Part shown: piece by piece, positions 1,615 to 17,243 of the stretch | Numbering within the stretch: position 1 is the stretch's first letter | How the letters are laid out: each line of letters starts with the position of its first letter | Source of the DNA: a virus | DNA length: 23,532 bases | Reading direction: 5' to 3' (one strand) | IMG/VR virus record: IMGVR_UViG_3300023184_000528 | Span: 1 to 23,532 of that record | Translations under genes and position numbers: made by a program | Notes under the pieces: generated by a model | Databases searched by the model: none | What the model was told of the DNA's origin: nothing | What the model saw: only the letters and a program-made list of their open reading frames with translations

Positions 1615-4600
1615 ATGGCTAATTCTCTTATCCAAATAAAGCAGTCGTTTACAAACACTGTTCCAGTATCGTTAAATGTTGGTGAACTTGCCTATTCGTA
1701 TGTAAGTAATAGTTTATTCATTGGTTCGCCAGGGAATTCTGGTTATATTAACATTGGTGGTTTCAGTTCTTTACTCAGGTATGATGAAGCATTTCATGCA
1801 GCCAACTCTGGATTCATACAAGCAAACGCATCGTTTCTTCATGCTAATGCTGCATTCATCAAAGCGAACTCTGGTTACAATTCACAGAACTCAAGTGGTA
1901 ACTATGCTAATGCTGCATTCATTCGTGCAAACAATTCTCTTAATGCCAATCTTGGTGGTCAAGTTACTGGTGTTACGACATTCAATTCTAACACATTTGC
2001 ATCATCAAACACAACAGGTGATTTAGTTGTCGTTGGTGGTGCCGCAATCAAAGGTAATGTATACACAGGTTCGATTTACATTACAGGTAATGCTTTAAGT
2101 GGAACAACTAATGGTATTGTATTTCCTGATGGAACAATACAGAACACTGCACCAGGTCCAATTGCTTTATCTGCTAACTTAGCATTCGGTAATGCTAACG
2201 GAGCATTTGCCAAATCAAATGCTGCTTATGATGCTGCTAATGCTGCATTCATTCGTGCTAATAATGCTGTTAATGCGAACTTAGGTGGCACGATCACCGC
2301 AACAACTGCGGCAGTATCAAACACTTCGGGTGCTTTGATTGTTGCGGGTGGTGTTGGTATCAAAGGTAATGTTTACACTGGTTCAATTGTTTTGACAGGT
2401 AATGGTGTTGGTGGTTTAACAAACACAATTACATTCCCTGACGGTACAGTTCAGAATAGTTCACCAGTTGCAATTGGTAACTATGCCAACTCTGCTTTTG
2501 CAAATGCCAATGGTGCTTTTGCTGCTGCTAATGCTGCTTTTGCAAATGCCAATGGTGCTTTTGCTAAATCAAATGCTGCTTTTGCTTTTGCGAATGGCGC
2601 ATTCGTTGCTGCCAACTTAGCATTCAATCAAGCAAATTCTGGATTCATCCAAGCAAACTCTGCATATGCTCAAGCAAATGCTGCTTATACTTCACAGAAT
2701 GCTTCTGGTCAATATGCGAATGCTGCATTCACAAGAGCAAACAATTCTCTTAGTGCAAACGTTGGTGGTATAGTTACAGGTGACGTTACCATTACAGGTA
2801 ATTTGTTAGTAACTGGTAATACAACTTATGTAAACAGTTCACAAACTTTAATTGCTGATAACATTTTAACTCTGAATGCAGCAATTAATCAAGCATCTGC
2901 ACCAATACTCAATGCTGGTATCGAAATTGATCGTGGTTCTGCTGCAAACGTTTATGTGTTGTGGAATGAGTCGGCAACAAAGTGGACAGTTACAAACGAT
3001 GGTACTGGTTACTATGGTATTGGTTCTGATGCTGCTGAATCATATGCCAACTCTGCGTTTATCAAATCGAATGCTGCGTTTGGTCATGCTAATGCTGCGT
3101 ACATAAGTCAAAATGCAACTGGTCAATATGCTAACTCTGCGTTTGCACAGGCAAATGCTGCATATCAAAGTCAGAATGCCACAGGTCAATATGCCAACTC
3201 CGCATTTGTACATGCCAACTCAGCATTCACTTATGGTAATGCAACTGCCACATATGCTAACTCTGCATTCATTCGTGCCAACAATTCACTAAACGCAAAC
3301 GTTGGTGGTCAAGTTACTGGCGATGTAACATTCGTAGGTAACGTAACATCCAACACAATAACAACAACGGGTTCAAATGGTAGCATCTCAGGTGCTAATG
3401 CCATCTTTACCAACTATATTTTTGCTGCGAATGGTAATGTAGACTTATACATCTACAGTTCGAATGCTTATGCGAATGCCAATGGAGGTTTTGCCAAAGC
3501 AAATGCTGCTTTTGCGAATGCTAATGGTGCTTTTGCTGCTGCGAACTTATCTTACAATCACGCAAACTCCGGTTATCAAAGTCAAAATGCAACTGGACAA
3601 TATGCCAATGCTGCATTTACGGTTGCCAATGGTGCATTTATTCATGCTAATGCCGCTTATCAAAGTCAAAATGCAACTGGACAATATGCCAATGCTGCAT
3701 TTACGGTTGCCAATGGTGCATTTATTCATGCTAATGCCGCTTATCAGAGTCAGAATGCAACTGGTAATGTAGCAAACGCTGGATTTACCGTTGCTAATGG
3801 TGCGTTCTTCCATGCTAATGCGGCTTACCAAAGTCAGAATGCAACTGGACAATATGCCAATGCTGCATTCATACAATCAAACTCTGCTTACCAAAGTCAG
3901 AATGCAACTGGTAATGTAGCAAACGCCGGATTCACTGTTGCTAATGGTGCTTTTTTTCATGCCAATGCTTCTTATATAAGTCAGAATGCCACTGGTCAAT
4001 ATGCTAACTCCGCATTTAATCAGGCTAATTCGGCTTACCAAAGTCAGAATACAACTGGTCAATATGCCAACTCCGCATATGCTCAAGCAAACTCCGCATA
4101 TCAATCGCAAAATGCCACAGGACAATATGCTAATGCTGCGTTCATTCGTGCTAACAATTCATTAGATGCAAACAATGGTGGTGTAGTTACAGGTAATGTA
4201 ACAATCACACAGAACCTTATTGTTTTGCGTGATACCACTGTTTCGGGAAATCTTTTTGTTCTAGGTAATACATTCTCAATCAATGCGGGTTCATTGGTTT
4301 CTAATGATACATTATTCATTTTAGGAACAGGTAACTACACTGCTGATGTTTTAGATATTGGTTTTGCTTCACATTATAATGATGGTGTAAATGCTCATAC
4401 GGGTTTAATTCGTGATTCTGGCACAAAAGAATGGCAACTATTTAAAGGTTACACGCCTGAAATTCTTGCAAACAATAACATTGATATCAATCATCCTTCA
4501 TTTCAGATTGATACACTGAATGCAAATCTTCATGCAACATATGTACTAACCAAAAACATTGACTTACTTCCGTATGCCAATTCGATATATGATAAGACGA

Positions 4601-7014
4601 ATGCATCATTTAATTCTGCCAATTCAGGATTTAATCAAGCAAACTCTGCATATCAGTCACAGAATGCCACAGGTCAGTATGCAAATTCTGCGTTTATACA
4701 AGCAAATGCCGCATATCAAAGTCAAAATGCAACAGGTGAATATGCTAATGCTGCATTCAATCATGCGAATGCTTCTTTTGCCGCTGCTAATAATGTATTC
4801 CCGCAGATTCAACCAGCATACAATACAGCAAACGCCGCATTCATACAAGCAAATACTGGTTACGATTTAGCAAACTCAATTGCTAATAACAGTACCGTTG
4901 CTGGTACATCTAATGTTGCGAACTATGTAAATCTACAGCCGAAATCTGGTAGTGGTTTGCATTATCTTGTATTGGCAAATGCAATTTCAGGTAATATTGC
5001 TGTTGGTGGTAATACTCAATTATATTACAGTCCATCATCCGATACTTTATATACACAGAAAGCAGTGTTTGGTCAATCTGTACAAACGTCATCGTTACTT
5101 GCCGCAGCAGGAAGTATTTTACTATTCAATACGACTGCTACCACAATTCGTATGGGTGGTGCAGCAACAACTATTAATATTGGTAACGCTGGTGGTATTA
5201 CAAACGTATTTGGCACACTTGCTGTTAATGGTGTAAGTGTAATTGGTTTTACACAAGGCGCATACAACACAGGCAACTCAGCATTCATTCAATCTAATGC
5301 TGCGTTCAATCATGCCAATGCATCTTTTGAAGCAGCCAATAATGTATTCCCACAGATACAACCAGCATTTAATACTGCCAATGCTGCATTCTTACAAGCA
5401 AACACGCCAAGTTATGTTGCCAACTCTGCGGCATCTTATGCTAACTCCGCATTTGGAACTGCCAACTCTGCTTCAGTGTATGCCAACTCTGCATTCACTG
5501 CTGCTAATGTTGCTGATGGTAAAGCGGTAGCATCCGGTAACTATGCGAATGGCGCATTCTTACAAGCGAATGTAGGAATAACACACGCACAGTCTGCATT
5601 TATTCAAGCAAACTCTGCATACGAATCACAGAATGCAACTGGTCAATATGCCAACTCTGCATTTATACAAGCAAACTCTGCTTTCTTTCATGCTAATGCT
5701 GCGTTCCTTGCTGCCAATAATGCAACGGACACTTATGTTCGTAATCATGCTAATGCTGCATTCATTCGTGCTAACAATTCACTAAACGCAAATGTTGGTG
5801 GTTCGATTACTGGTGATGTTACTATCACAGGTAATCTGATTGTATCTGGTAATACTGTTTATGCCAATGCACAGACCGTTCTGATTGCCGATAACATTAT
5901 CACACTGAATGCTGCTATAGATCAGACATCAGCACCAACAATGAATGCTGGCGTTGAAGTTGATCGTGGTAATCAACCAAACGTTTCTATTATTTGGAAT
6001 GAGACTACACAAAAGTGGACATTCACTAACGATGGTTCTACTTATTCTGACTTAGGTTCGGGTTCTGGTTCAGCAGGTGTTTATGCCAACGGTGCATTCA
6101 TACAAGCAAACTCTGCTTTCTTCCATGCTAATGCTGCTTACAATCAAGCAAACTCTGGTGGTAGTGTTGCAATTACTTTTGGACCAAACCCTCCAGTATC
6201 AGGTAATGCTAACGGTCATATTTGGATAGATTCTGCTGATGGTTCAGAGTACATATACTTTAAAGATTCTGATGGATTCCAGTGGGTTGAATTTGGACCA
6301 GGCAGTGCTAATATTGTATCAAATACTTTCATTACTGCAAATGTAACCGCACCATTTAGTCAAGCAAATGCTGCATTCAACCAAGCAAACTCAGCATTTA
6401 TCCAAGCAAATGCATCGTTTAATACTGGTAACTCTGCATTTATTACGGCAAATGCTGCATTTATACAAGCGAATACACCAGACTATGTTGCAAATTCTGC
6501 GGCATCATATGCTAATGCTGCATTCTTACAAGCGAATACTGCTAATACAATTTTAATTGATTCGGCACGATTGGCACCTAATCTGAAATTAAGCATCATT
6601 CAGGTACTTGAAACTGCAAATATCTATTCAACTCCAATTAGTGGTAATGTGAACATAGATATTGGTGTAAATACTTCTTATTTCTTCTCATCAAATACCA
6701 CAGCAAATGTTACTTTTAATTTAAGAGGAACTTCTAGTGCTTCATTTGATAGCACAGTTGGTATTGGACAGACTGCATCAGTAGCGATTGCACTTAAACA
6801 AGGTGCAACAAAGTATAAAGCAAATGTGTATATTGATGGTGTGTTACAAACACCATACTGGTTAGGTAACTCTTCACCAGGTTATGCTACATCACAACAA
6901 CAGTCAATTGATGTCTATACATACACAGTATTTAAAACGGCAGCGGCAACATACAGCATACTGGCAGCAAATAGCAACTTTGGATTGGCTCAAGGCCAAC
7001 CAGGTCAAGGATAA
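1615..7014 (+). CDS. Giant heptad-repeat tail-fibre protein, 1,799 aa
   Basis: Long stretches follow a seven-residue repeat, roughly [AQ]-N-[AS]-[AGT]-[FYG]-x-x (ANAAFIQ, ANSAYQS, QNATGQY). Phe/Tyr and Ala fall at alternating 3/4 spacing, as in a trimeric coiled coil. Beta modules interrupt the heptads: residues about 116-182 and 223-284 (SGALIVAGG, then FPDGTVQN); 383-470 and 1395-1484 (LIADNI-x-TLNAA, AG-x-E-x-DRG); about 854-982 (LDIGFASHYNDG, GLIRDSGTKEWQLF); about 1100-1210; and about 1517-1570 (GHIWIDSADG, FQWVEFG). Six copies of a F-x-RANN linker mark heptad-to-beta transitions. The last 140 residues resemble the 216-aa protein at 11896. These modules are common in T4-like fibres, so a long host-binding fibre is likely. 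ATG at 1615 has only a weak ribosome site. The gene ends TAA TAA TAG directly before the next ATG. Confidence 0.9.
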   Translation: MANSLIQIKQSFTNTVPVSLNVGELAYSYVSNSLFIGSPGNSGYINIGGFSSLLRYDEAFHAANSGFIQANASFLHANAAFIKANSGYNSQNSSGNYANAAFIRANNSLNANLGGQVTGVTTFNSNTFASSNTTGDLVVVGGAAIKGNVYTGSIYITGNALSGTTNGIVFPDGTIQNTAPGPIALSANLAFGNANGAFAKSNAAYDAANAAFIRANNAVNANLGGTITATTAAVSNTSGALIVAGGVGIKGNVYTGSIVLTGNGVGGLTNTITFPDGTVQNSSPVAIGNYANSAFANANGAFAAANAAFANANGAFAKSNAAFAFANGAFVAANLAFNQANSGFIQANSAYAQANAAYTSQNASGQYANAAFTRANNSLSANVGGIVTGDVTITGNLLVTGNTTYVNSSQTLIADNILTLNAAINQASAPILNAGIEIDRGSAANVYVLWNESATKWTVTNDGTGYYGIGSDAAESYANSAFIKSNAAFGHANAAYISQNATGQYANSAFAQANAAYQSQNATGQYANSAFVHANSAFTYGNATATYANSAFIRANNSLNANVGGQVTGDVTFVGNVTSNTITTTGSNGSISGANAIFTNYIFAANGNVDLYIYSSNAYANANGGFAKANAAFANANGAFAAANLSYNHANSGYQSQNATGQYANAAFTVANGAFIHANAAYQSQNATGQYANAAFTVANGAFIHANAAYQSQNATGNVANAGFTVANGAFFHANAAYQSQNATGQYANAAFIQSNSAYQSQNATGNVANAGFTVANGAFFHANASYISQNATGQYANSAFNQANSAYQSQNTTGQYANSAYAQANSAYQSQNATGQYANAAFIRANNSLDANNGGVVTGNVTITQNLIVLRDTTVSGNLFVLGNTFSINAGSLVSNDTLFILGTGNYTADVLDIGFASHYNDGVNAHTGLIRDSGTKEWQLFKGYTPEILANNNIDINHPSFQIDTLNANLHATYVLTKNIDLLPYANSIYDKTNASFNSANSGFNQANSAYQSQNATGQYANSAFIQANAAYQSQNATGEYANAAFNHANASFAAANNVFPQIQPAYNTANAAFIQANTGYDLANSIANNSTVAGTSNVANYVNLQPKSGSGLHYLVLANAISGNIAVGGNTQLYYSPSSDTLYTQKAVFGQSVQTSSLLAAAGSILLFNTTATTIRMGGAATTINIGNAGGITNVFGTLAVNGVSVIGFTQGAYNTGNSAFIQSNAAFNHANASFEAANNVFPQIQPAFNTANAAFLQANTPSYVANSAASYANSAFGTANSASVYANSAFTAANVADGKAVASGNYANGAFLQANVGITHAQSAFIQANSAYESQNATGQYANSAFIQANSAFFHANAAFLAANNATDTYVRNHANAAFIRANNSLNANVGGSITGDVTITGNLIVSGNTVYANAQTVLIADNIITLNAAIDQTSAPTMNAGVEVDRGNQPNVSIIWNETTQKWTFTNDGSTYSDLGSGSGSAGVYANGAFIQANSAFFHANAAYNQANSGGSVAITFGPNPPVSGNANGHIWIDSADGSEYIYFKDSDGFQWVEFGPGSANIVSNTFITANVTAPFSQANAAFNQANSAFIQANASFNTGNSAFITANAAFIQANTPDYVANSAASYANAAFLQANTANTILIDSARLAPNLKLSIIQVLETANIYSTPISGNVNIDIGVNTSYFFSSNTTANVTFNLRGTSSASFDSTVGIGQTASVAIALKQGATKYKANVYIDGVLQTPYWLGNSSPGYATSQQQSIDVYTYTVFKTAAATYSILAANSNFGLAQGQPGQG
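3577..3744 (+). repeat. Perfect 84-bp tandem duplication inside the fibre gene
   Basis: 3577-3660 and 3661-3744 are identical over all 84 bases and encode four heptads (28 residues, QSQNATGQY to NAAY) twice. Related but diverged 84-base units follow at 3745-3828 and 3889-3972. The identity at synonymous positions points to a recent slippage or recombination event. Confidence 0.95.
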
Positions 7015-7020
7015 TAATAG

Positions 7021-8361
7021 ATGGCTATAGGCATAAATTTTCCAAGTAATCCAACAGCAAATCAATCTTATTCTTTTGGGAGTAAGACTTGGATTTTTAA
7101 TGGCTACGGATGGAAATTACAAACATTATTTTCTGCTAATTCAGAATTATCGTCATTTTCTACATTAGCAGATGGTGCAACATCAACATATAGTTTAGGT
7201 TTCACACCTATATCTAATGCTGCCATATTTGTTTCTGTTGGAGGTATAGTTCAGAATGAATCTGACTATGTTATTAATGCTTCTAACAATACCATTTCGT
7301 TTACCGAACCTCCACCCACATCTGAGAATGTTCGTGTTGTAGGTTATAGAACCATGACTCCATATTATTTGGATGTTGCTAATTCTATCGGTGCAATTGT
7401 TCAAGCATATAATGGTGTTGGTGATGGCGGAACACAGACATTTAATCTTGGTTTCAATCCATATGGTGCCAATTCCGTATTTGTAACAGTCGGTGGTATC
7501 GTACAACCAGACAATGCGTATACGGTAAGTAATGTTGCAAACACAATTACATTTGGTACTGCACCACAGAACAATGAAAACATTCGTGTTGTTGGTTATA
7601 GTCGTGTAAATCCATTCATCACATACTATGCTAATCAGAATGTTTCGGTATCGGTATATGAAACAACTGCGAATGGTAACACGACAACATTCCCACTAGG
7701 ATTTAATCCACAAGCAAAAGAGTTTCTGACCGTAACGATTGATGGTATCGTACAACCACTTTCCGTTTATTCGGTAAACACAACTGCTAACACAATTACA
7801 TTTGATGCTCCACCTGCCAACAATGAATTAGTTCGTGTAGCAACATTCTACACTGCGGTTAATACGATTGCTATTCAATTAGCAGCAACAAACACCACAG
7901 TATCTACGTTTGAAACAACAGCAAATGGTTTAGTTAGTACCTTTGCTCTCGGCTTCACACCAGTAAGTAATCAGGCATTAATTGTAGCGATTGATGGTGT
8001 ACTTCAAGCACCAAGTTCCTATTTAATCAATGCATCAGCAAACACAATCACGTTTGATGTTGCACCAGTAAATAATGAATACATTTCAGTTACCACAATC
8101 GGTGCAACAAATGTTTATGTGGTAAATGATGGAACAATTACTCTTGCAAAATTAGCACCAAATGTTACAGATCGCCTCACACAGATTAATGATACAGCAA
8201 ACGCAGCATTCAATACAGGTAACTCAGGTTTCATTCAAGCGAATGCAGGATTTGGTGTGGCAAACTCTGCGGCAATTTATGCCAACGGTGCTTTTGTGAC
8301 AGCAAACGCAGCAGCAACAACAGGAAAAGCAATTGCTATGTCAATTGTATTCGGAGGTTAA
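7021..8361 (+). CDS. Tail-fibre protein with four tandem beta repeats, 446 aa
   Basis: The N-terminus INFPSNPTANQSYSFGSKTW followed by NGYGWKL matches a widespread phage-fibre leader (INFPxxPxxGQxYxFGxxxWxYNGxxW). Four tandem repeats of about 65-75 residues follow, at about 48-110, 128-199, 211-285 and 295-366. Each has x-LGF-x-P, V-x-V-x-G-[IV]-[VL]-Q, NTI-x-F and PP-x-[NS]-E cores (for example FVSVGGIVQ, FVTVGGIVQ, VTIDGIVQ). The C-terminus carries a TITLAKLAP segment, a short run of the ANAAF heptads seen in the giant fibre, and the ending AMSIVFGG. It is probably a trimeric fibre or baseplate-wedge fibre. AAGGA at 7007-7011 supports the start. It is in frame with the giant fibre and separated from it by three consecutive stop codons, so the two may once have been one gene. 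Confidence 0.85.
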   Translation: MAIGINFPSNPTANQSYSFGSKTWIFNGYGWKLQTLFSANSELSSFSTLADGATSTYSLGFTPISNAAIFVSVGGIVQNESDYVINASNNTISFTEPPPTSENVRVVGYRTMTPYYLDVANSIGAIVQAYNGVGDGGTQTFNLGFNPYGANSVFVTVGGIVQPDNAYTVSNVANTITFGTAPQNNENIRVVGYSRVNPFITYYANQNVSVSVYETTANGNTTTFPLGFNPQAKEFLTVTIDGIVQPLSVYSVNTTANTITFDAPPANNELVRVATFYTAVNTIAIQLAATNTTVSTFETTANGLVSTFALGFTPVSNQALIVAIDGVLQAPSSYLINASANTITFDVAPVNNEYISVTTIGATNVYVVNDGTITLAKLAPNVTDRLTQINDTANAAFNTGNSGFIQANAGFGVANSAAIYANGAFVTANAAATTGKAIAMSIVFGG

Positions 8362-11895: not shown

Positions 11896-12546
11896 ATGCA
11901 AACAGTTGCTACTTTACCTGTACTGCAAACCGTCAGTGATGTTACACCACATTACCTCGGTTTGCAGCCGACAATTAGTGGAAAAACGACAGCCGAATAT
12001 GTAAATAGTGGTTTGTCGTTTAATCCTGCGTCCAATACATTAACGCTTGGTGTCAATTTAAATCTATTACCAGGAGCAATCAATACGGCTGCTCTTGGTG
12101 ATTCATCGGTAACTGCGGCAAAGATTGGTTTAGTTACACGTTTGATTGAAGGTGCTCAATTGATTACGGCAGCACCAACAACCACATTGAATGTAAATGT
12201 ATTAGATGCTACGGTGTATTACATCACAGCAAATGCGGTAGCAAATATGACGTTCAATCTAATTGGTAATACAACAACACCATTAGATAATCTAGTACAA
12301 GCAGGTCAAGCAATCACAACCGTGTTTATTATAACACAAGGTTTAGTTCAATACTCAGCAAACATAGCAATTGATGGTGTGTTCCGTGCAGCAAGTACAC
12401 GATGGATGGGTAACACACGACCAGGTTATGTTCTATCAGCAGGACCATCTGCTAATAATCTTGATGTGTATTCGTTTACTACTATCAAAACAACAGGTAA
12501 TACATATACCATATTGGGTTCTAATACAGTATTTGGAGCAACATAA
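11896..12546 (+). CDS. Fibre-associated beta-domain protein, 216 aa
   Basis: The ATG follows the TAA of the 1,016-aa gene with no gap and in the same frame, so the two are separated only by one stop codon. The first 75 residues include LPVLQTVSDVTPHYLGLQP, a short strand-rich segment (LSFNPASNTLTLG) and one SSVTAAKIG unit like those in the decapeptide proteins. Residues about 78-216 form a domain shared with the end of the giant fibre. Matching landmarks are AN-x-TFNL-x-G, Q-G-x-x-x-Y-x-A-N, IDGV, GN-x-x-PGY, DVY-x-x-T and TY-x-IL-x-x-N. The shared domain suggests a fibre tip or capping module that occurs both fused and free-standing. The stop overlaps the next ATG by one base (TAATG), which indicates translational coupling. 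Confidence 0.8.
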   Translation: MQTVATLPVLQTVSDVTPHYLGLQPTISGKTTAEYVNSGLSFNPASNTLTLGVNLNLLPGAINTAALGDSSVTAAKIGLVTRLIEGAQLITAAPTTTLNVNVLDATVYYITANAVANMTFNLIGNTTTPLDNLVQAGQAITTVFIITQGLVQYSANIAIDGVFRAASTRWMGNTRPGYVLSAGPSANNLDVYSFTTIKTTGNTYTILGSNTVFGAT

Positions 12547-12869
12547 TGCCAGAACAAAAAGTTGAATCGGGTAGGATAGCAACTGGTGCTGTAACTGGCG
12601 ATAAGATTGCTTCTGGCGCAGTTCGTGGTAACAACATCGTCGCTGGTACTATCACTGGCAATTTAATCGGTACCGGTGCTATAAGTGGCAATCAGATTAC
12701 AACTGGTGCAATTACTGGCGATAAGTTGGTAGATAATGTTATTCGTGGTAATAACATTGTTGCAGGAACAATCAGCGGTAATCTTATTGCTGATGGAACA
12801 ATTACAACTATAAAACTGCAAGACCCTGCTGGTGGATTTGAAGATTTATTTTTAATGGGCGGTTTGTAA
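12546..12869 (+). CDS. Decapeptide-repeat structural mini-protein, 107 aa (paralog 1)
   Basis: Residues about 8-95 are made of ten-residue units: GAVTGDKIAS, GAVRGNNIVA, GTITGNLIGT, GAISGNQITT, GAITGDKLVD, NVIRGNNIVA, GTISGNLIAD, GTITTIKL. Regular spacing of Ile/Leu/Val and Gly suggests a beta-solenoid or stacked-strand rod. Short runs of similar units (AITTDKIADNAIT) are common in phage fibres; a gene consisting of little else is less usual. The C-terminal tail FEDLFLMGGL is shared in pattern with the proteins at 13798 and 14029. It overlaps the upstream gene by one base, and its own stop overlaps the next ATG by one base (TAATG), so it is translationally coupled to the glycine-rich adhesin at 12869. 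It may be a connector or chaperone for that adhesin, which is inference. Confidence 0.8.
   Translation: MPEQKVESGRIATGAVTGDKIASGAVRGNNIVAGTITGNLIGTGAISGNQITTGAITGDKLVDNVIRGNNIVAGTISGNLIADGTITTIKLQDPAGGFEDLFLMGGL
12741..12766 (+). repeat. 26-bp exact repeat, copy 1 (decapeptide unit)
   Basis: These 26 bases encode IRGNNIVAG and are identical to 14167-14192 in the third paralog. Flanking sequence on both sides is also highly similar, for example GATAAGTTGGTAGATA near both copies. This indicates recent duplication or gene conversion. Confidence 0.85.
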
Positions 12870-13777
12870 TGAGTTTAAAAAGATACACAATATCAAGTGT
12901 TCGAAATCGTCTGTATACAGTGCCAAGCATTGCCCTTGGATTACCCGCTCAAAGTCAACCTCCTCCTTTTATAGAACTTCTTGTTGTTGCTGGCGGTGGC
13001 GGAGGTGGTCAAGGTGGTGGCCCTGCTGCAAATGAAACTGGCGGTGGTGGTGCTGGTGGTTTAATTTATATTAGCCAATATGCTAGAGCACCAGTTTATA
13101 CTATTTCAATAGGTGGCGGTGGTTCACAAACTGGAAGCGGAACAAATACAACAGTAACAAGTGGTATTGAAACATTGACTGCAATCGGCGGTGCCGGTGG
13201 CACAGTTAATAGTCAAAATGGCGGTGTTGGTGGTTCTGGTTCTGGTGGTACACATAATGGAACAGCAGGTGGTGCAGGAAATCAAACTACTAATCCAAGT
13301 ATTTCAGCAAATAGTCGTACATATGGTTTTGGTACCAGTGGTGGTAATGGTGCCGCTAGTGCTGGTGGTGGTGGCGGTGGTGCAGGACAGGCAGGTGGAA
13401 ATGCTCCATCTCCCGGCGGTTATGGTGGTAATGGTAAACAGTATACACAATTTGCACCTTTTGGAGCAAACACAAGTTATTTTGCCGGCGGTGGTGTAGG
13501 AACATATGGTAATGGTGCTGCTGGTGGTCTTGGAGGTGGCGGTGGTGCAGGTGTTCCATGGTCCACCTCAACTTTAAATGCCACTATAAACACTGGCGGC
13601 GGTGGTGGTGGTTCACCTAGTAATCCAACTGGAGCAGGTGGTTCTGGTATTGTTATTCTTCGTTGGCCTGAAATTTATTTTGCAGCAAATGGTACTACAG
13701 GTAGTCCTATAACAAGTAATGTTGGAGGATATAGAATGTATGCCTTTACTGGTACGGGTAGTATAAACATATATTGA
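12869..13777 (+). CDS. Glycine-rich adhesin, one module, 302 aa
   Basis: The N-terminal leader KRYTISSVRNRLYTVPSIA resembles the start of the 109-aa protein at 14365 (NYTILGQ, RLYAVPAS) and may be an attachment segment. From residue about 32 it reads FIELLVVAGGGGGGQGG and continues as a glycine-rich domain of about 230 residues (GGGGAGGLIYIS, YFAGGGVGTYGNG). It ends in the family signature GSGIVILRW, followed by a unique 35-residue tail including YRMYAFTGTGSINIY. In phages such domains form polyglycine-II bundles presenting receptor-binding loops. A host-recognition role is inferred. It starts within the TAATG overlap with the upstream decapeptide gene. A 20-base gap with a late-promoter-like motif follows. 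Confidence 0.85.
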   Translation: MSLKRYTISSVRNRLYTVPSIALGLPAQSQPPPFIELLVVAGGGGGGQGGGPAANETGGGGAGGLIYISQYARAPVYTISIGGGGSQTGSGTNTTVTSGIETLTAIGGAGGTVNSQNGGVGGSGSGGTHNGTAGGAGNQTTNPSISANSRTYGFGTSGGNGAASAGGGGGGAGQAGGNAPSPGGYGGNGKQYTQFAPFGANTSYFAGGGVGTYGNGAAGGLGGGGGAGVPWSTSTLNATINTGGGGGGSPSNPTGAGGSGIVILRWPEIYFAANGTTGSPITSNVGGYRMYAFTGTGSINIY

Positions 13778-14364: not shown

Positions 14365-14694
14365 ATGCCAAGAAATTATACAATCTTAGGACAACAAAAT
14401 CCAGCAGCAAATGTATTGACAAGATTATATGCAGTTCCTGCAAGTAACTCTGCGGTTATTTCGTCAATCAACATTGCTAATCTGGATGCAAACGTTGCTG
14501 CGTTTAGTATCGCAGCAAATGTATCTGGTGTTGCAACCGCTAATGCTAACTATCTTGCCTGGCGTGTAGCAATACCAGGTAACGATTCTATTGCATTAAG
14601 TTTGGGTGTGACATTGAATGCATCATCACAGTTGTCGGTTAATGCTAACAGTTCAACACTTTCATTTAGTGCATTTGGTACGGAAATTTACTAA
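14365..14694 (+). CDS. Small beta-sandwich virion protein, 109 aa
   Basis: The layout is Y-T-I-L-G-Q, then R-L-Y-A-V-P-A-S-N-S-A-V-I-S-S, NIANLDANVAAFSIAA, YLAWRVAIPGNDSIALSLG, and LSFSAFGTEIY. I recognise this as a small phage structural domain found in many aquatic phage genomes (pattern T-x-LYTVP, then P-x-x-DSIALTLGITL). A TAGGAAAA segment overlapping the upstream stop gives a plausible ribosome site for ATG 14365. Its stop overlaps the ATG of the three-module adhesin by one base (TAATG), so translation is coupled. Its leader is similar to the first residues of the 302-aa adhesin, so it may supply in trans a part that is fused there. Specific function is unknown. Confidence 0.8.
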   Translation: MPRNYTILGQQNPAANVLTRLYAVPASNSAVISSINIANLDANVAAFSIAANVSGVATANANYLAWRVAIPGNDSIALSLGVTLNASSQLSVNANSSTLSFSAFGTEIY

Positions 14695-17243
14695 TGCCTA
14701 TCCGTAAATTTACCAATGGTAGATTTAGTCTAAAACGATTTACTGCACCAGGAGTTGGTGGTGGTTCTACACCTGCACCTGCTGGTTCAACATCGTATAC
14801 CGCTGTTCAAGTATTCACAACATCACAAACATGGACGCCACCTTCTGGAGTAACTTCAGTTGATTATCTTGTTATTGGTGGAGGCGGTGCTGGTGGTGGT
14901 AAAAATATGGGAGGTGGGGGTGGTGCTGGAGGTTATCGTGAAGGTACTGGTTTATCGGTAACTCCTGCAACATCATACACTATTGCGATTGGTGCTGGTG
15001 GTGCTGGGGTATCTGGAGCCGTAAACGGTTCAAATGGAACAAATTCAGGAGTATTCAACACAAGTACAGGTTCAACACTAATCGGTTGGTCAATTGGTGG
15101 TGGTTATGGTGCAAGAGGAGTTTATGCCGGTTCAGCGCAGAATGGTGCTTCGGGTGGTTCTGGCGGTGGCGGTGGCGGTGATGATACTGGCGGTCCATTT
15201 CCAGGTGGTGCAGGAACACCAGGACAAGGTTTTAGTGGTGGCTCAGGAAGAGGTTCTGGCGGTGGTGCAGGTGGTGGAGGCGGTGCTGGTGCTGTAGGTA
15301 CAAGTGCTACAGGAGCACCAGGTGGAAATGGTGGTATAGGTATAGCATCAACAATATCCGGAACATCGACATACTATGCAGGTGGCGGTGGCGGCGGTGC
15401 TAATGGTCCAGCACCAAATGCTACAGGACTTGGTGCTGCGGTTGGTGGTTTAGGCGGCGGTGGTACTGCGGGTTCAGGTAATCCCGCATCACAAGCAACA
15501 AGTGCAAATAATAATAGTGGTGGTGGTGGCGGTGGTAACGGTGGTTATGAAACAGGTTTGACTTCTGGTAACGGTGGTTCGGGTGTAGTAATTTTTAAAT
15601 TCACAGTCACACCACCAAATGCGATTCTAACATTTGCAAACACAGGTGAATTCATTGTACCTGCTGGTGTAACAACAATTGATTATCTTGTTGTTGCTGG
15701 TGGAGGTGGTGGTGGTGCTACTGGTGGTGGTGGTGGTGGTGCTGGTGGTGTATTAACAGGCACAGGTTTATCTGTCGGACCAGGACAAGGTTATACGATT
15801 GTAGTTGGTGCAGGTGGTTCTGCTGGTGCAGGTGGAGGACAAAATCCAGGTTCAAATGGAGGAAACTCTGTAATTGTCGCATCAAATTCTGCATGGACAT
15901 TAGGTAATACTACAAATTCATATAGTACAACAAGTAATAATTCAGGCATATTAGTTGCTATAGGTGGTGGTGCTGGTGGCACCATTGGTTTTCGTGGACA
16001 ACAAGGTGGTTCAGGCGGCGGAGGCGGTAAAGATATAACAACTGCTGGTGGTCCAGGCACACCAGGACAAGGATATTCTGGTGGCACAGCAGATGCTCCA
16101 ACTTCTGCTGGCGCAGGTGGAGGTGGTGGTGCTGGTGGTGCTGGTTATAGTGCCTTTGGTGCACCAGTTGAAAACGGTGCTAATGGCGGCATAGGAATTT
16201 TTTCATCAATTTCAGGATCAAATACTGGTTATGGTGGAGGCGGAGGAGGCAATTCAAATAGAAGCACACCATCATCCACAAGTGGTTATGGACATTTTAT
16301 TTGTGGTGGTGCAAACGCCACTTCAACAATAGGTAATGCAGCAGCAAATAATACTGGCGGTGGTGGTGGTGGTGGTGCTTATCTTAATCCTGGTGTTTCT
16401 GGTGGTCAGTCTGGAGGAAGAGGTGGTTCTGGTATAGTCATCATCTCAATTCCTGCAACACAAACGAAACGTGCAGTATATACAAGTTCAGGTTTATTCA
16501 CAGTACCTACGGGTGTAACACAAGTAGATTATCTTGTTGTTGCTGGAGGTGGCTCTGGTGGTGGTTATTGTTCGGGTGGTGGTGGTGCTGGCGGATTTAG
16601 AACTGGCACAGGATACACAGTAACTCCTGCACAAACAATTCCAATTATAGTTGGTGCTGGTGGTGCAAGTTCAGGTAGTACATCTGCAAACTTTGGTAAT
16701 CGTGGAAGCAATTCTACATTCGATACAATAACATCTGTAGGTGGAGGTGTTGGTACTACTGGCGGTGGTGAAGGTGGAACAATAGGTTTAAATTCAAATG
16801 GAGGTTCTGGTGGCGGTAAAGGTCCGGGTGATGCTGCTGCTCCAGGATTAGGAATGGTAGGTCAAGGAAATAATGGTGGTGCTGTATCAAACGGTGCAAC
16901 AGGTGGCGGTGGTGGTGCGGGTGCTGCTGGTGGCACTGCTCCTGCTCCTGGTACTGCTGGTGGTGTTGGTGGTGATGGATTGTCATCAATATTTTCAGGT
17001 ACATCCACATTCTATTCTGGTGGTGGTGGATCAAATGGCGGTACTCCTGCTCCTCAAGGTGCTGCTGGTGGTGCGGGTGGTGGTGGAAGAGGATGCCTTG
17101 TCAACTCAGGTACTGGTGGTACGGTAATCAATGCTGAGAATGGAACATTTGCAACTGGTGGAGGTGCTGGTGGTGGTGGAGTCGGTCCACAAAGAACACC
17201 AGCATCGGGTGGTTCAGGAATTGTTATTCTAAAGTGGGTATAA
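14694..17243 (+). CDS. Three-module glycine-rich adhesin, 849 aa
   Basis: After a leader (PIRKFTNGRFSLKRF) come three tandem glycine-rich modules at about residues 38-305, 311-590 and 594-849. Each opens with F-x-x-P-x-GVT-x-[VI]-DYLV-[IV]-[AG]-GGG, has a TGLSV/TGYTV-x-P strand, repeated GGGG turns and a S-G-T/S-x-T-[YF]-Y-x-GGGG motif, and closes with GGSGVVIFKF, GGSGIVIIS or GGSGIVILKW. The 302-aa protein has one such module and the truncated gene at the window start has at least part of one. Loops between glycine blocks differ most, as expected for receptor-contact loops. The role is inferred to be host-surface binding at a fibre tip. The start lies within a TAATG overlap with the 109-aa gene. 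The stop at 17241-17243 is followed by a promoter-like motif before gp13. Confidence 0.88.
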   Translation: MPIRKFTNGRFSLKRFTAPGVGGGSTPAPAGSTSYTAVQVFTTSQTWTPPSGVTSVDYLVIGGGGAGGGKNMGGGGGAGGYREGTGLSVTPATSYTIAIGAGGAGVSGAVNGSNGTNSGVFNTSTGSTLIGWSIGGGYGARGVYAGSAQNGASGGSGGGGGGDDTGGPFPGGAGTPGQGFSGGSGRGSGGGAGGGGGAGAVGTSATGAPGGNGGIGIASTISGTSTYYAGGGGGGANGPAPNATGLGAAVGGLGGGGTAGSGNPASQATSANNNSGGGGGGNGGYETGLTSGNGGSGVVIFKFTVTPPNAILTFANTGEFIVPAGVTTIDYLVVAGGGGGGATGGGGGGAGGVLTGTGLSVGPGQGYTIVVGAGGSAGAGGGQNPGSNGGNSVIVASNSAWTLGNTTNSYSTTSNNSGILVAIGGGAGGTIGFRGQQGGSGGGGGKDITTAGGPGTPGQGYSGGTADAPTSAGAGGGGGAGGAGYSAFGAPVENGANGGIGIFSSISGSNTGYGGGGGGNSNRSTPSSTSGYGHFICGGANATSTIGNAAANNTGGGGGGGAYLNPGVSGGQSGGRGGSGIVIISIPATQTKRAVYTSSGLFTVPTGVTQVDYLVVAGGGSGGGYCSGGGGAGGFRTGTGYTVTPAQTIPIIVGAGGASSGSTSANFGNRGSNSTFDTITSVGGGVGTTGGGEGGTIGLNSNGGSGGGKGPGDAAAPGLGMVGQGNNGGAVSNGATGGGGGAGAAGGTAPAPGTAGGVGGDGLSSIFSGTSTFYSGGGGSNGGTPAPQGAAGGAGGGGRGCLVNSGTGGTVINAENGTFATGGGAGGGGVGPQRTPASGGSGIVILKWV

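Follow-up and report, generated by a model that had tools for sequence, protein, structure and literature searches.

A long tail fibre of an uncultured T4-like aquatic phage with putative helical heptad rods and a recurrent RANN junction

The open reading frame at 1615-7014 (+) of a 23.5 kb IMG/VR virus record, the whole of which is here called the window, probably encodes the long tail fibre of an uncultured T4-like aquatic myovirus, within a fibre cluster upstream of gp13-gp17. Its product alternates arrays of Asn/Ala heptads with predicted beta modules, and a recurrent RANN junction is found at array ends. The explanation as a whole, comprising helical heptad rods, the RANN junction as a helix-to-beta connector and a T4-like fibre, is given a probability of about 0.78.

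The fibre gene and its genomic setting

The reading frame is open from its ATG start and specifies 1,799 aa.

1615-7014, + strand: tail-fibre gene P0001, from reading of the open frame, with T4-like neighbours gp13-gp17 downstream

The genes between 17 and 23 kb of the window are those for a T4-type head-tail adaptor (Ad2), head closure protein (Hc2), tail sheath stabiliser (gp15), TerS and TerL, and the large terminase has 54-55% identity to those of cyanomyophages and Pelagibacter phage Mosig. In cyanomyophages and pelagimyophages, a hypervariable cluster of fibre genes associated with host recognition is flanked by vrlC and by gp14, a neck gene (PMC7029224). The fibre genes of the window likewise adjoin neck genes, upstream of Ad2, Hc2, gp15, TerS and TerL, although no gene of the window was identified as vrlC. 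The fibre would be expected to act in host attachment.

The next gene (7021-8361) specifies a 446 aa product with a match to the T7 tail-fibre N-terminal domain (PF03906) and, close to its end (8197-8319), heptads of the same kind; this protein may partner or anchor the long fibre. The domain family at the C-terminus of the long fibre, phrog_5906, also exists in a separate small protein, as it is carried by the 216 aa product of 11896-12546. Three proteins (3-467, 12869-13777 and 14694-17243) match the glycine-rich family phrog_2295, the first of them matching Pfam Gly_rich_2 in addition, and may serve as fibre tips or adhesins rich in glycine. A run of TGG triplets lies at 15698-15750.

Heptad arrays and beta modules

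When the protein is compared with itself at successive offsets, identity is 0.206 at lag 7 and 0.19-0.22 at lags 14, 21 and 28, against approximately 0.09 at most other lags. The corresponding lag-7 value in residue shuffles is 0.097 ± 0.006 (z = 16.8 for the observed value), which bears out the heptad arrays described in the initial annotation. The resulting map of arrays and intervening segments is as follows.

1615-1794, +: N-terminal domain (MANSLIQIKQSFTNTVPVSLNVGELAYSY...), common to homologs L115, L065 and L077 (homolog comparison)
1804-1935, +: heptad array 1, residues 64-107 (periodicity)
1960-2175, +: beta module 1, residues 116-187, with IVFPDGTIQ motif; resembles module 226-291 (sequence)
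2176-2265, +: heptad array 2, residues 188-217 (periodicity)
2290-2487, +: beta module 2, residues 226-291 (sequence)
2488-2745, +: heptad array 3, residues 292-377 (periodicity; predicted helix 286-377)
2770-3030, +: beta module 3, residues 386-472, common to cyanophage fibres with other shafts (model, matches)
3049-3285, +: heptad array 4, residues 479-557 (periodicity)
3310-3480, +: beta module 4, residues 566-622 (sequence; homologs)
3481-4158, +: heptad array 5, residues 623-848, the longest, with 84-bp tandem repeats (periodicity, repeats)
4183-4578, +: beta module 5, residues 857-988 (sequence; homologs)
4579-4875, +: heptad array 6, residues 989-1087, ending without RANN (periodicity)
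4888-5259, +: beta segment without RANN junction, residues 1092-1215 (sequence)
5275-5718, +: heptad array 7, interrupted, residues 1221-1368 (periodicity)
5803-6054, +: beta module 6, residues 1397-1480, of module-3 type (sequence)
6088-6153, +: short heptad array 8, residues 1492-1513 (periodicity)
6154-6366, +: non-heptad segment without RANN junction, residues 1514-1584 (sequence)
6367-6537, +: last heptad array, residues 1585-1641, predicted helix broken at ANTPDYVAN (periodicity and model)
6589-6978, +: C-terminal beta domain, residues 1659-1788, phrog_5906 (profile, model, weak structural match)

The composition of the heptads in these arrays is A(.73)-N(.95)-[AS](.75)-A(.63)-[FY](.73)-x-x. 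The Asn, previously described as invariant, is more exactly near-invariant, at 95% in the window and 89% in homologs. Charged residues (D/E/K/R) make up 2.5% of the 791 array residues and 7.5% of the rest of the protein; just five Arg residues are present in the nine arrays, all of them from RANN junctions, and the sixth RANN Arg lies in a lone heptad after a break.

Among 4,219 distinct heptads, column entropy is lowest at the Asn (0.86 bits), followed by the preceding Ala (1.28) and the second Ala (1.83), and is highest (3.5) at the two residues after Phe/Tyr. This pattern of conservation suggests a register with Phe/Tyr at a, from which it follows that Ala would occupy d and g and Asn e, leaving b, c (the most variable) and f as the variable columns. 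In the N@d stalks of trimeric autotransporters Asn is at the core d position; here the register suggested by the entropies would place it at e. If the approximately 800 heptad residues are all helical, a rise of 0.15 nm per residue would give a rod of roughly 120 nm.

Some features count against a coiled coil: the SQNATGQ heptads would place Gly at position a, where stable coiled coils seldom have it, and Asn, Ser, Gly and Thr are plentiful in the protein. Many phage fibre shafts consist of beta structure, and the same composition could be taken to indicate a shaft of repetitive beta or solenoid type, such as some fibres rich in Asn, Gly and Ser possess. However, the strict period of seven residues, the 3/4 spacing of Phe and Ala and the variability of the putative b, c and f columns argue against such a shaft, as do the structural predictions described below.

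The RANN junction

RANN occurs six times in the fibre, where shuffling gives an expectation of 0.06 RANN and zero full junctions.

1924-1959, +: junction 1, RANNSLNANLGG, R104 (sequence)
2254-2289, +: junction 2, RANNAVNANLGG, R214 (sequence)
2734-2769, +: junction 3, RANNSLSANVGG, R374, predicted helix end N377 (sequence and model)
3274-3309, +: junction 4, RANNSLNANVGG, R554 (sequence)
4147-4182, +: junction 5, RANNSLDANNGG, R845 (sequence)
5767-5802, +: junction 6, RANNSLNANVGG, R1385 (sequence)

All six sites read F-[IT]-RANN followed by xxx-AN-x-GG, with L, L, V, V, N and V in turn as the residue before GG. This is exactly the number of such junctions that had been claimed, at residue numbers within one of those given here. 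A RANN junction precedes six of about nine beta segments, and the arrays ending near residues 1087, 1513 and 1641 lack it.

The distribution of these sequences was also studied in IMG/VR, using a DNA pattern for two heptads plus the Ala-Asn of a third, and another for RANNxxxANxGG. Each matched at least 120 stretches. T4-type markers were present at 67 of 176 heptad loci, many of the 176 being partial. On IMG/VR contigs, 169 distinct versions of the RANN junction were compared; in these, the heptad phase of Asn is kept at 62% over the six heptads upstream and at 6% downstream. The expectation that the junction should lie at a domain border in homologs is thus confirmed as regards the border of the heptads. 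In 151 of the 169, GG continues as GG-x-x-[TSV]-[GAY], even though these positions lie outside the search pattern, and the consensus is ANAAF[IT]RANNSL[ND]AN-x-GGT[IV]TG[DN]V-T-I-T-GN. Within homologous arrays, Arg stands before the last Ala-Asn in 51% of heptads adjacent to a GG junction, a value biased upwards because the junction pattern had served to retrieve about half of the loci; among internal heptads the share is 2.6%, which is free of this bias.

Other arrays reach the same GG border without Arg, for instance through ANxKFSSSGGTISG(D) or ANNALPKAGGTMTG; as read from the sequences, these exits have Leu/Phe four residues before GG, and the RANN form has it five residues before. Because of these alternative exits, the RANN junction appears to be a frequent but not obligatory version of a helix-to-beta border that is broader and takes other forms as well. 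Its earlier description as a 'standard' connector was therefore apt as to the helix-to-beta role (see below) but too strong, given the three beta segments that lack RANN and the non-Arg forms found elsewhere.

The six junctions are similar at the DNA level too, a recent tandem duplication is present in the arrays (84-bp unit, 88% matches), and beta modules recur within and between fibres, all of which would fit the RANN junction being a recently copied sequence, spread by module duplication or gene conversion with no structural requirement behind it. This seems unlikely, as the 169 distinct versions on many contigs keep R-A-N-N, A-N and G-G (the letters used for the search), as well as the heptad border and GG-x-x-[TS]-G, while the downstream modules differ; furthermore, the same GG-x-x-[TS]-G border is reached by other arrays with different letters.

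Predicted structure

An AlphaFold2 monomer model of residues 285-482, based on an alignment of 30 sequences, has a single helix at 286-377, with pLDDT by block mostly 81-92, then 76 and 58 at the end. The helix includes the SQNASGQ heptads and extends as far as N377, the second Asn of RANN. After it come approximately 55 residues without regular structure (pLDDT 51-72); strands are then predicted at 434-460, and a helix restarts at 473, corresponding to the next array. In a second AlphaFold2 model (residues 1576-1799, 16 sequences), the last array is helical up to the Pro-containing heptad, breaks there and is followed by a beta domain, pLDDT being mostly 56-87 across this C-terminal domain.

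The helical nature of the heptad arrays suggested in the initial annotation accordingly holds as a prediction, array 3 being modelled as a confident continuous monomer helix, with the qualification that AlphaFold2 is prone to predict helix for Ala-rich repeats and that a monomer helix is not proof of a coiled coil. The presence of a confident continuous helix in two separate models, and the location of the clear helix break of the modelled array at a Pro-containing heptad, are difficult to reconcile with a beta or solenoid shaft, which is considered very unlikely.

The interpretation of the RANN junction as a helix-to-beta connector is well supported by the model and the sequences together, because the predicted helix ends at RANN, with predicted strands following at 434-460, the Asn phase is lost downstream of the junction in homologs, and Arg marks the last heptad. 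The junction would thus lie between helix and beta segment, as do the known coiled-coil-to-beta connectors.

Neither model has a significant Foldseek match in the PDB. Against BFVD, the first model gave 20 matches at E ≤ 1e-3; the named ones comprise, among others, tail-fibre-like proteins of S-H9-1 and ACG-2014h, and the remainder are mostly uncharacterised phage proteins. T4 gp34 (4UXG) was rejected as a match to the beta part of this model, being too weak (VIA Z 3.3, rmsd 4.9, 97 aligned).

For the C-terminal domain, the top PDB rows in VIA-align are phage proteins, led by residues 78-180 of CBA120 TSP4, with a Z of 6.6 (rmsd 3.0, 88 aligned) that is below 8; T4 gp9 is near the top with Z 4.8. 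Residues 80-178 of TSP4 constitute the trimeric XD1 domain, the closest relative of which is gp9 (PMC8825819). The fold of XD1 and gp9 is a mixed beta-sandwich of about 100 residues. The resemblance of the C-terminal domain to T4 gp9 and TSP4 XD1 is suggestive only: it is a weak likeness of fold alone, at Z values in the range where chance arrangements occur, and the domain is C-terminal here but internal in those proteins.

Comparison with known shafts and connectors

Ala-rich heptad shafts are already known from phage-type fibres. The PCoil of lambdoid prophage fibres (EPclA/EPclB, Stf family) is a homotrimer of Ala heptads, alpha-helical by measurement, with the pattern Ala-x-x-Ala/Ser-x-x-Ser, in which Glu is abundant and large hydrophobic residues are almost lacking (PMC3368898). 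The present arrays share with PCoil their low-complexity, Ala-rich heptads, variable length, occurrence in a fibre-type protein and position linking globular domains, and are likewise helical, in this case by prediction. They differ in having Phe/Tyr and a near-invariant Asn, in their low content of charged residues (2.5%) and in an exit of their own, RANN-GG. When the PCoil pattern was applied to the homologous heptads, Ala at p0 (0.81) and Ala/Ser at p3 (0.77) fitted, but Ser at p6 was found in only 0.06; neither are the often-charged x positions of PCoil matched in arrays of so little charge.

Transitions from coiled coil to beta structure have similarly been catalogued in phage fibres, including KKLNLKGGVM of a prophage hyaluronidase, and beta-layer connectors, in which short beta strands from three chains make up a triangular layer, are known from phage fibres and trimeric autotransporters, such as SKQELDKKLNLKGGVM in 2C3F (PMC4786415). 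The RANN junction resembles the known phage-fibre transitions, with their GG-x-[IVM]-[TS]-G after the helix. As in the beta-layer connectors, the helix would stop, to be followed by a short segment with a hydrophobic residue and then by Gly-Gly and beta structure; the differences are the Arg-Ala-Asn-Asn at the last turn and a distance from Leu to GG that is one residue longer.

These comparisons bear on the oligomeric state of the shaft. As heptads are also found in the neighbouring gene (8197-8319), the arrays could be helical without forming a homotrimeric coiled coil, the helices instead lying along a partner, pairing as dimers or entering a heteromeric bundle with the 7021-8361 protein. 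Such arrangements are considered improbable: the Ala-heptad PCoil is a homotrimer (PMC3368898), the structurally known beta-layer examples, the SLH domain apart, are homotrimers too (PMC4786415), and the C-terminal domain resembles, in a weak match, the trimeric XD1 and gp9. By analogy, the shaft is likely to be a trimer.

The Pfam phage-fibre repeat families PF03335 and PF03406 did not match the whole protein at E ≤ 0.01 or the tested junction and module fragments at E ≤ 10. Whole-protein searches of Pfam, PHROGs and PDB sequences found nothing useful for the fibre, the sole PDB sequence match, ATP synthase subunit c (E 0.17), being discarded; composition-bias filters probably hide the arrays from such searches. 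A profile of the junction had no match among PDB sequences, and literature searches yielded nothing relevant on this heptad or on a phage fibre rich in Asn. The shaft would seem to function like PCoil, and its exit like the known coiled-coil-to-beta connectors. It is best seen as a widespread, seemingly undescribed form of a type of shaft that is already known. Its designation as a new shaft type in the initial annotation is fair for the sequence code, but both Ala-rich heptad shafts (PMC3368898) and coiled-coil-to-beta connectors (PMC4786415) were known previously.

Modularity of the fibres of relatives

The beta module at residues 386-472 ('NLTVTGTTT..NT..L.V.DN.I.LN...........AGIEV.RG......RWNE....W...N.G') is also present in cyanophage and Kyanoviridae fibre proteins, on other shafts: in S-H9-1, Sf-CH1b and ACG-2014h the shaft consists of WNTAYGWGNHATAGYL-type spacers, and in C48C1 of charged Ala-heptads. 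In the stretches read, the Asn/Phe heptad is absent from the fibre genes of S-H9-1, Sf-CH1b, ACG-2014h, C48C1 and Mosig, as is the RANN junction from those of the first four, and a motif scan of the fetched stretches of CRP-207, CRP-738, LR745206 and MW202481 found no such shaft. This absence from isolates rests on the reading of genes and the motif scan, since low-complexity arrays are masked by the filter of tblastn. When two arrays were compared with a phage collection by distant blastn, no match was obtained.

Matches to the heptad DNA pattern in GTDB genomes were dismissed as relatives, being unrelated low-complexity repeats in two MAGs. One of these, a Planctomycetaceae MAG (L211-L213), contains long repeats coding for heptapeptides of the FAGANAA/FAPANAA type, both strands being open in L213, that are unrelated to the fibre.

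The closest comparison is provided by L115, the nearest relative, in which the genes neighbouring the fibre are 88-96% identical to those of the window, while the homologous fibre is divided between two consecutive genes of 1,186 and 991 aa (3564-10111 of L115, minus strand). Residues 1 to approximately 840 of the window fibre match the first of these (identity 0.68-1.00 in 60-aa blocks), and from approximately 900 to 1799 most blocks are closer to the second (0.57-1.00), the exception being residues 1021-1260, which match neither clearly. The correspondence changes from one gene to the other within array 5 (623-848), the longest, or immediately beyond it. In L203, by contrast, the homolog is a single gene that aligns over its full length. 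Length differences in PCoil shafts come in multiples of seven. In the present fibres, indels in multiples of seven account for 97 of 170 (57%) inside arrays and 19 of 217 (9%) outside, a difference inflated by the preference of the aligner for in-phase gaps. As the arrays are near-repeats, recombination within them could lengthen or shorten fibres and exchange their modules.

Conclusions

In the structure proposed, the A-N-x-A-[FY]-x-x stretches would form continuous alpha-helical rods, most likely as parallel trimeric coiled coils, each segment of which bears a beta module. F-[IT]-RANN-S-L-[ND]-A-N-x-GG-T-[IV]-T-G would act as the connector, the helix stopping at RANN and the chain turning into beta structure, and the fibre may end in a trimer-type beta domain like T4 gp9 or TSP4 XD1.

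Host choice is set by phage fibres. In aquatic phages the fibre shafts mostly lack annotation, and the Pfam and PHROGs profiles tried did not describe this one. A short code for shaft and exit would allow fibre proteins to be found in environmental data and divided into modules. The odds appear even that this distinct coiled-coil code and its Arg-marked exit represent an interchangeable shaft used by a large group of uncultured T4-like aquatic phages, with the arrays serving as seams for recombination. A nearly chargeless coiled coil with a ladder of Asn beside its core would, if true, also be a useful test of the rules of coiled-coil design.
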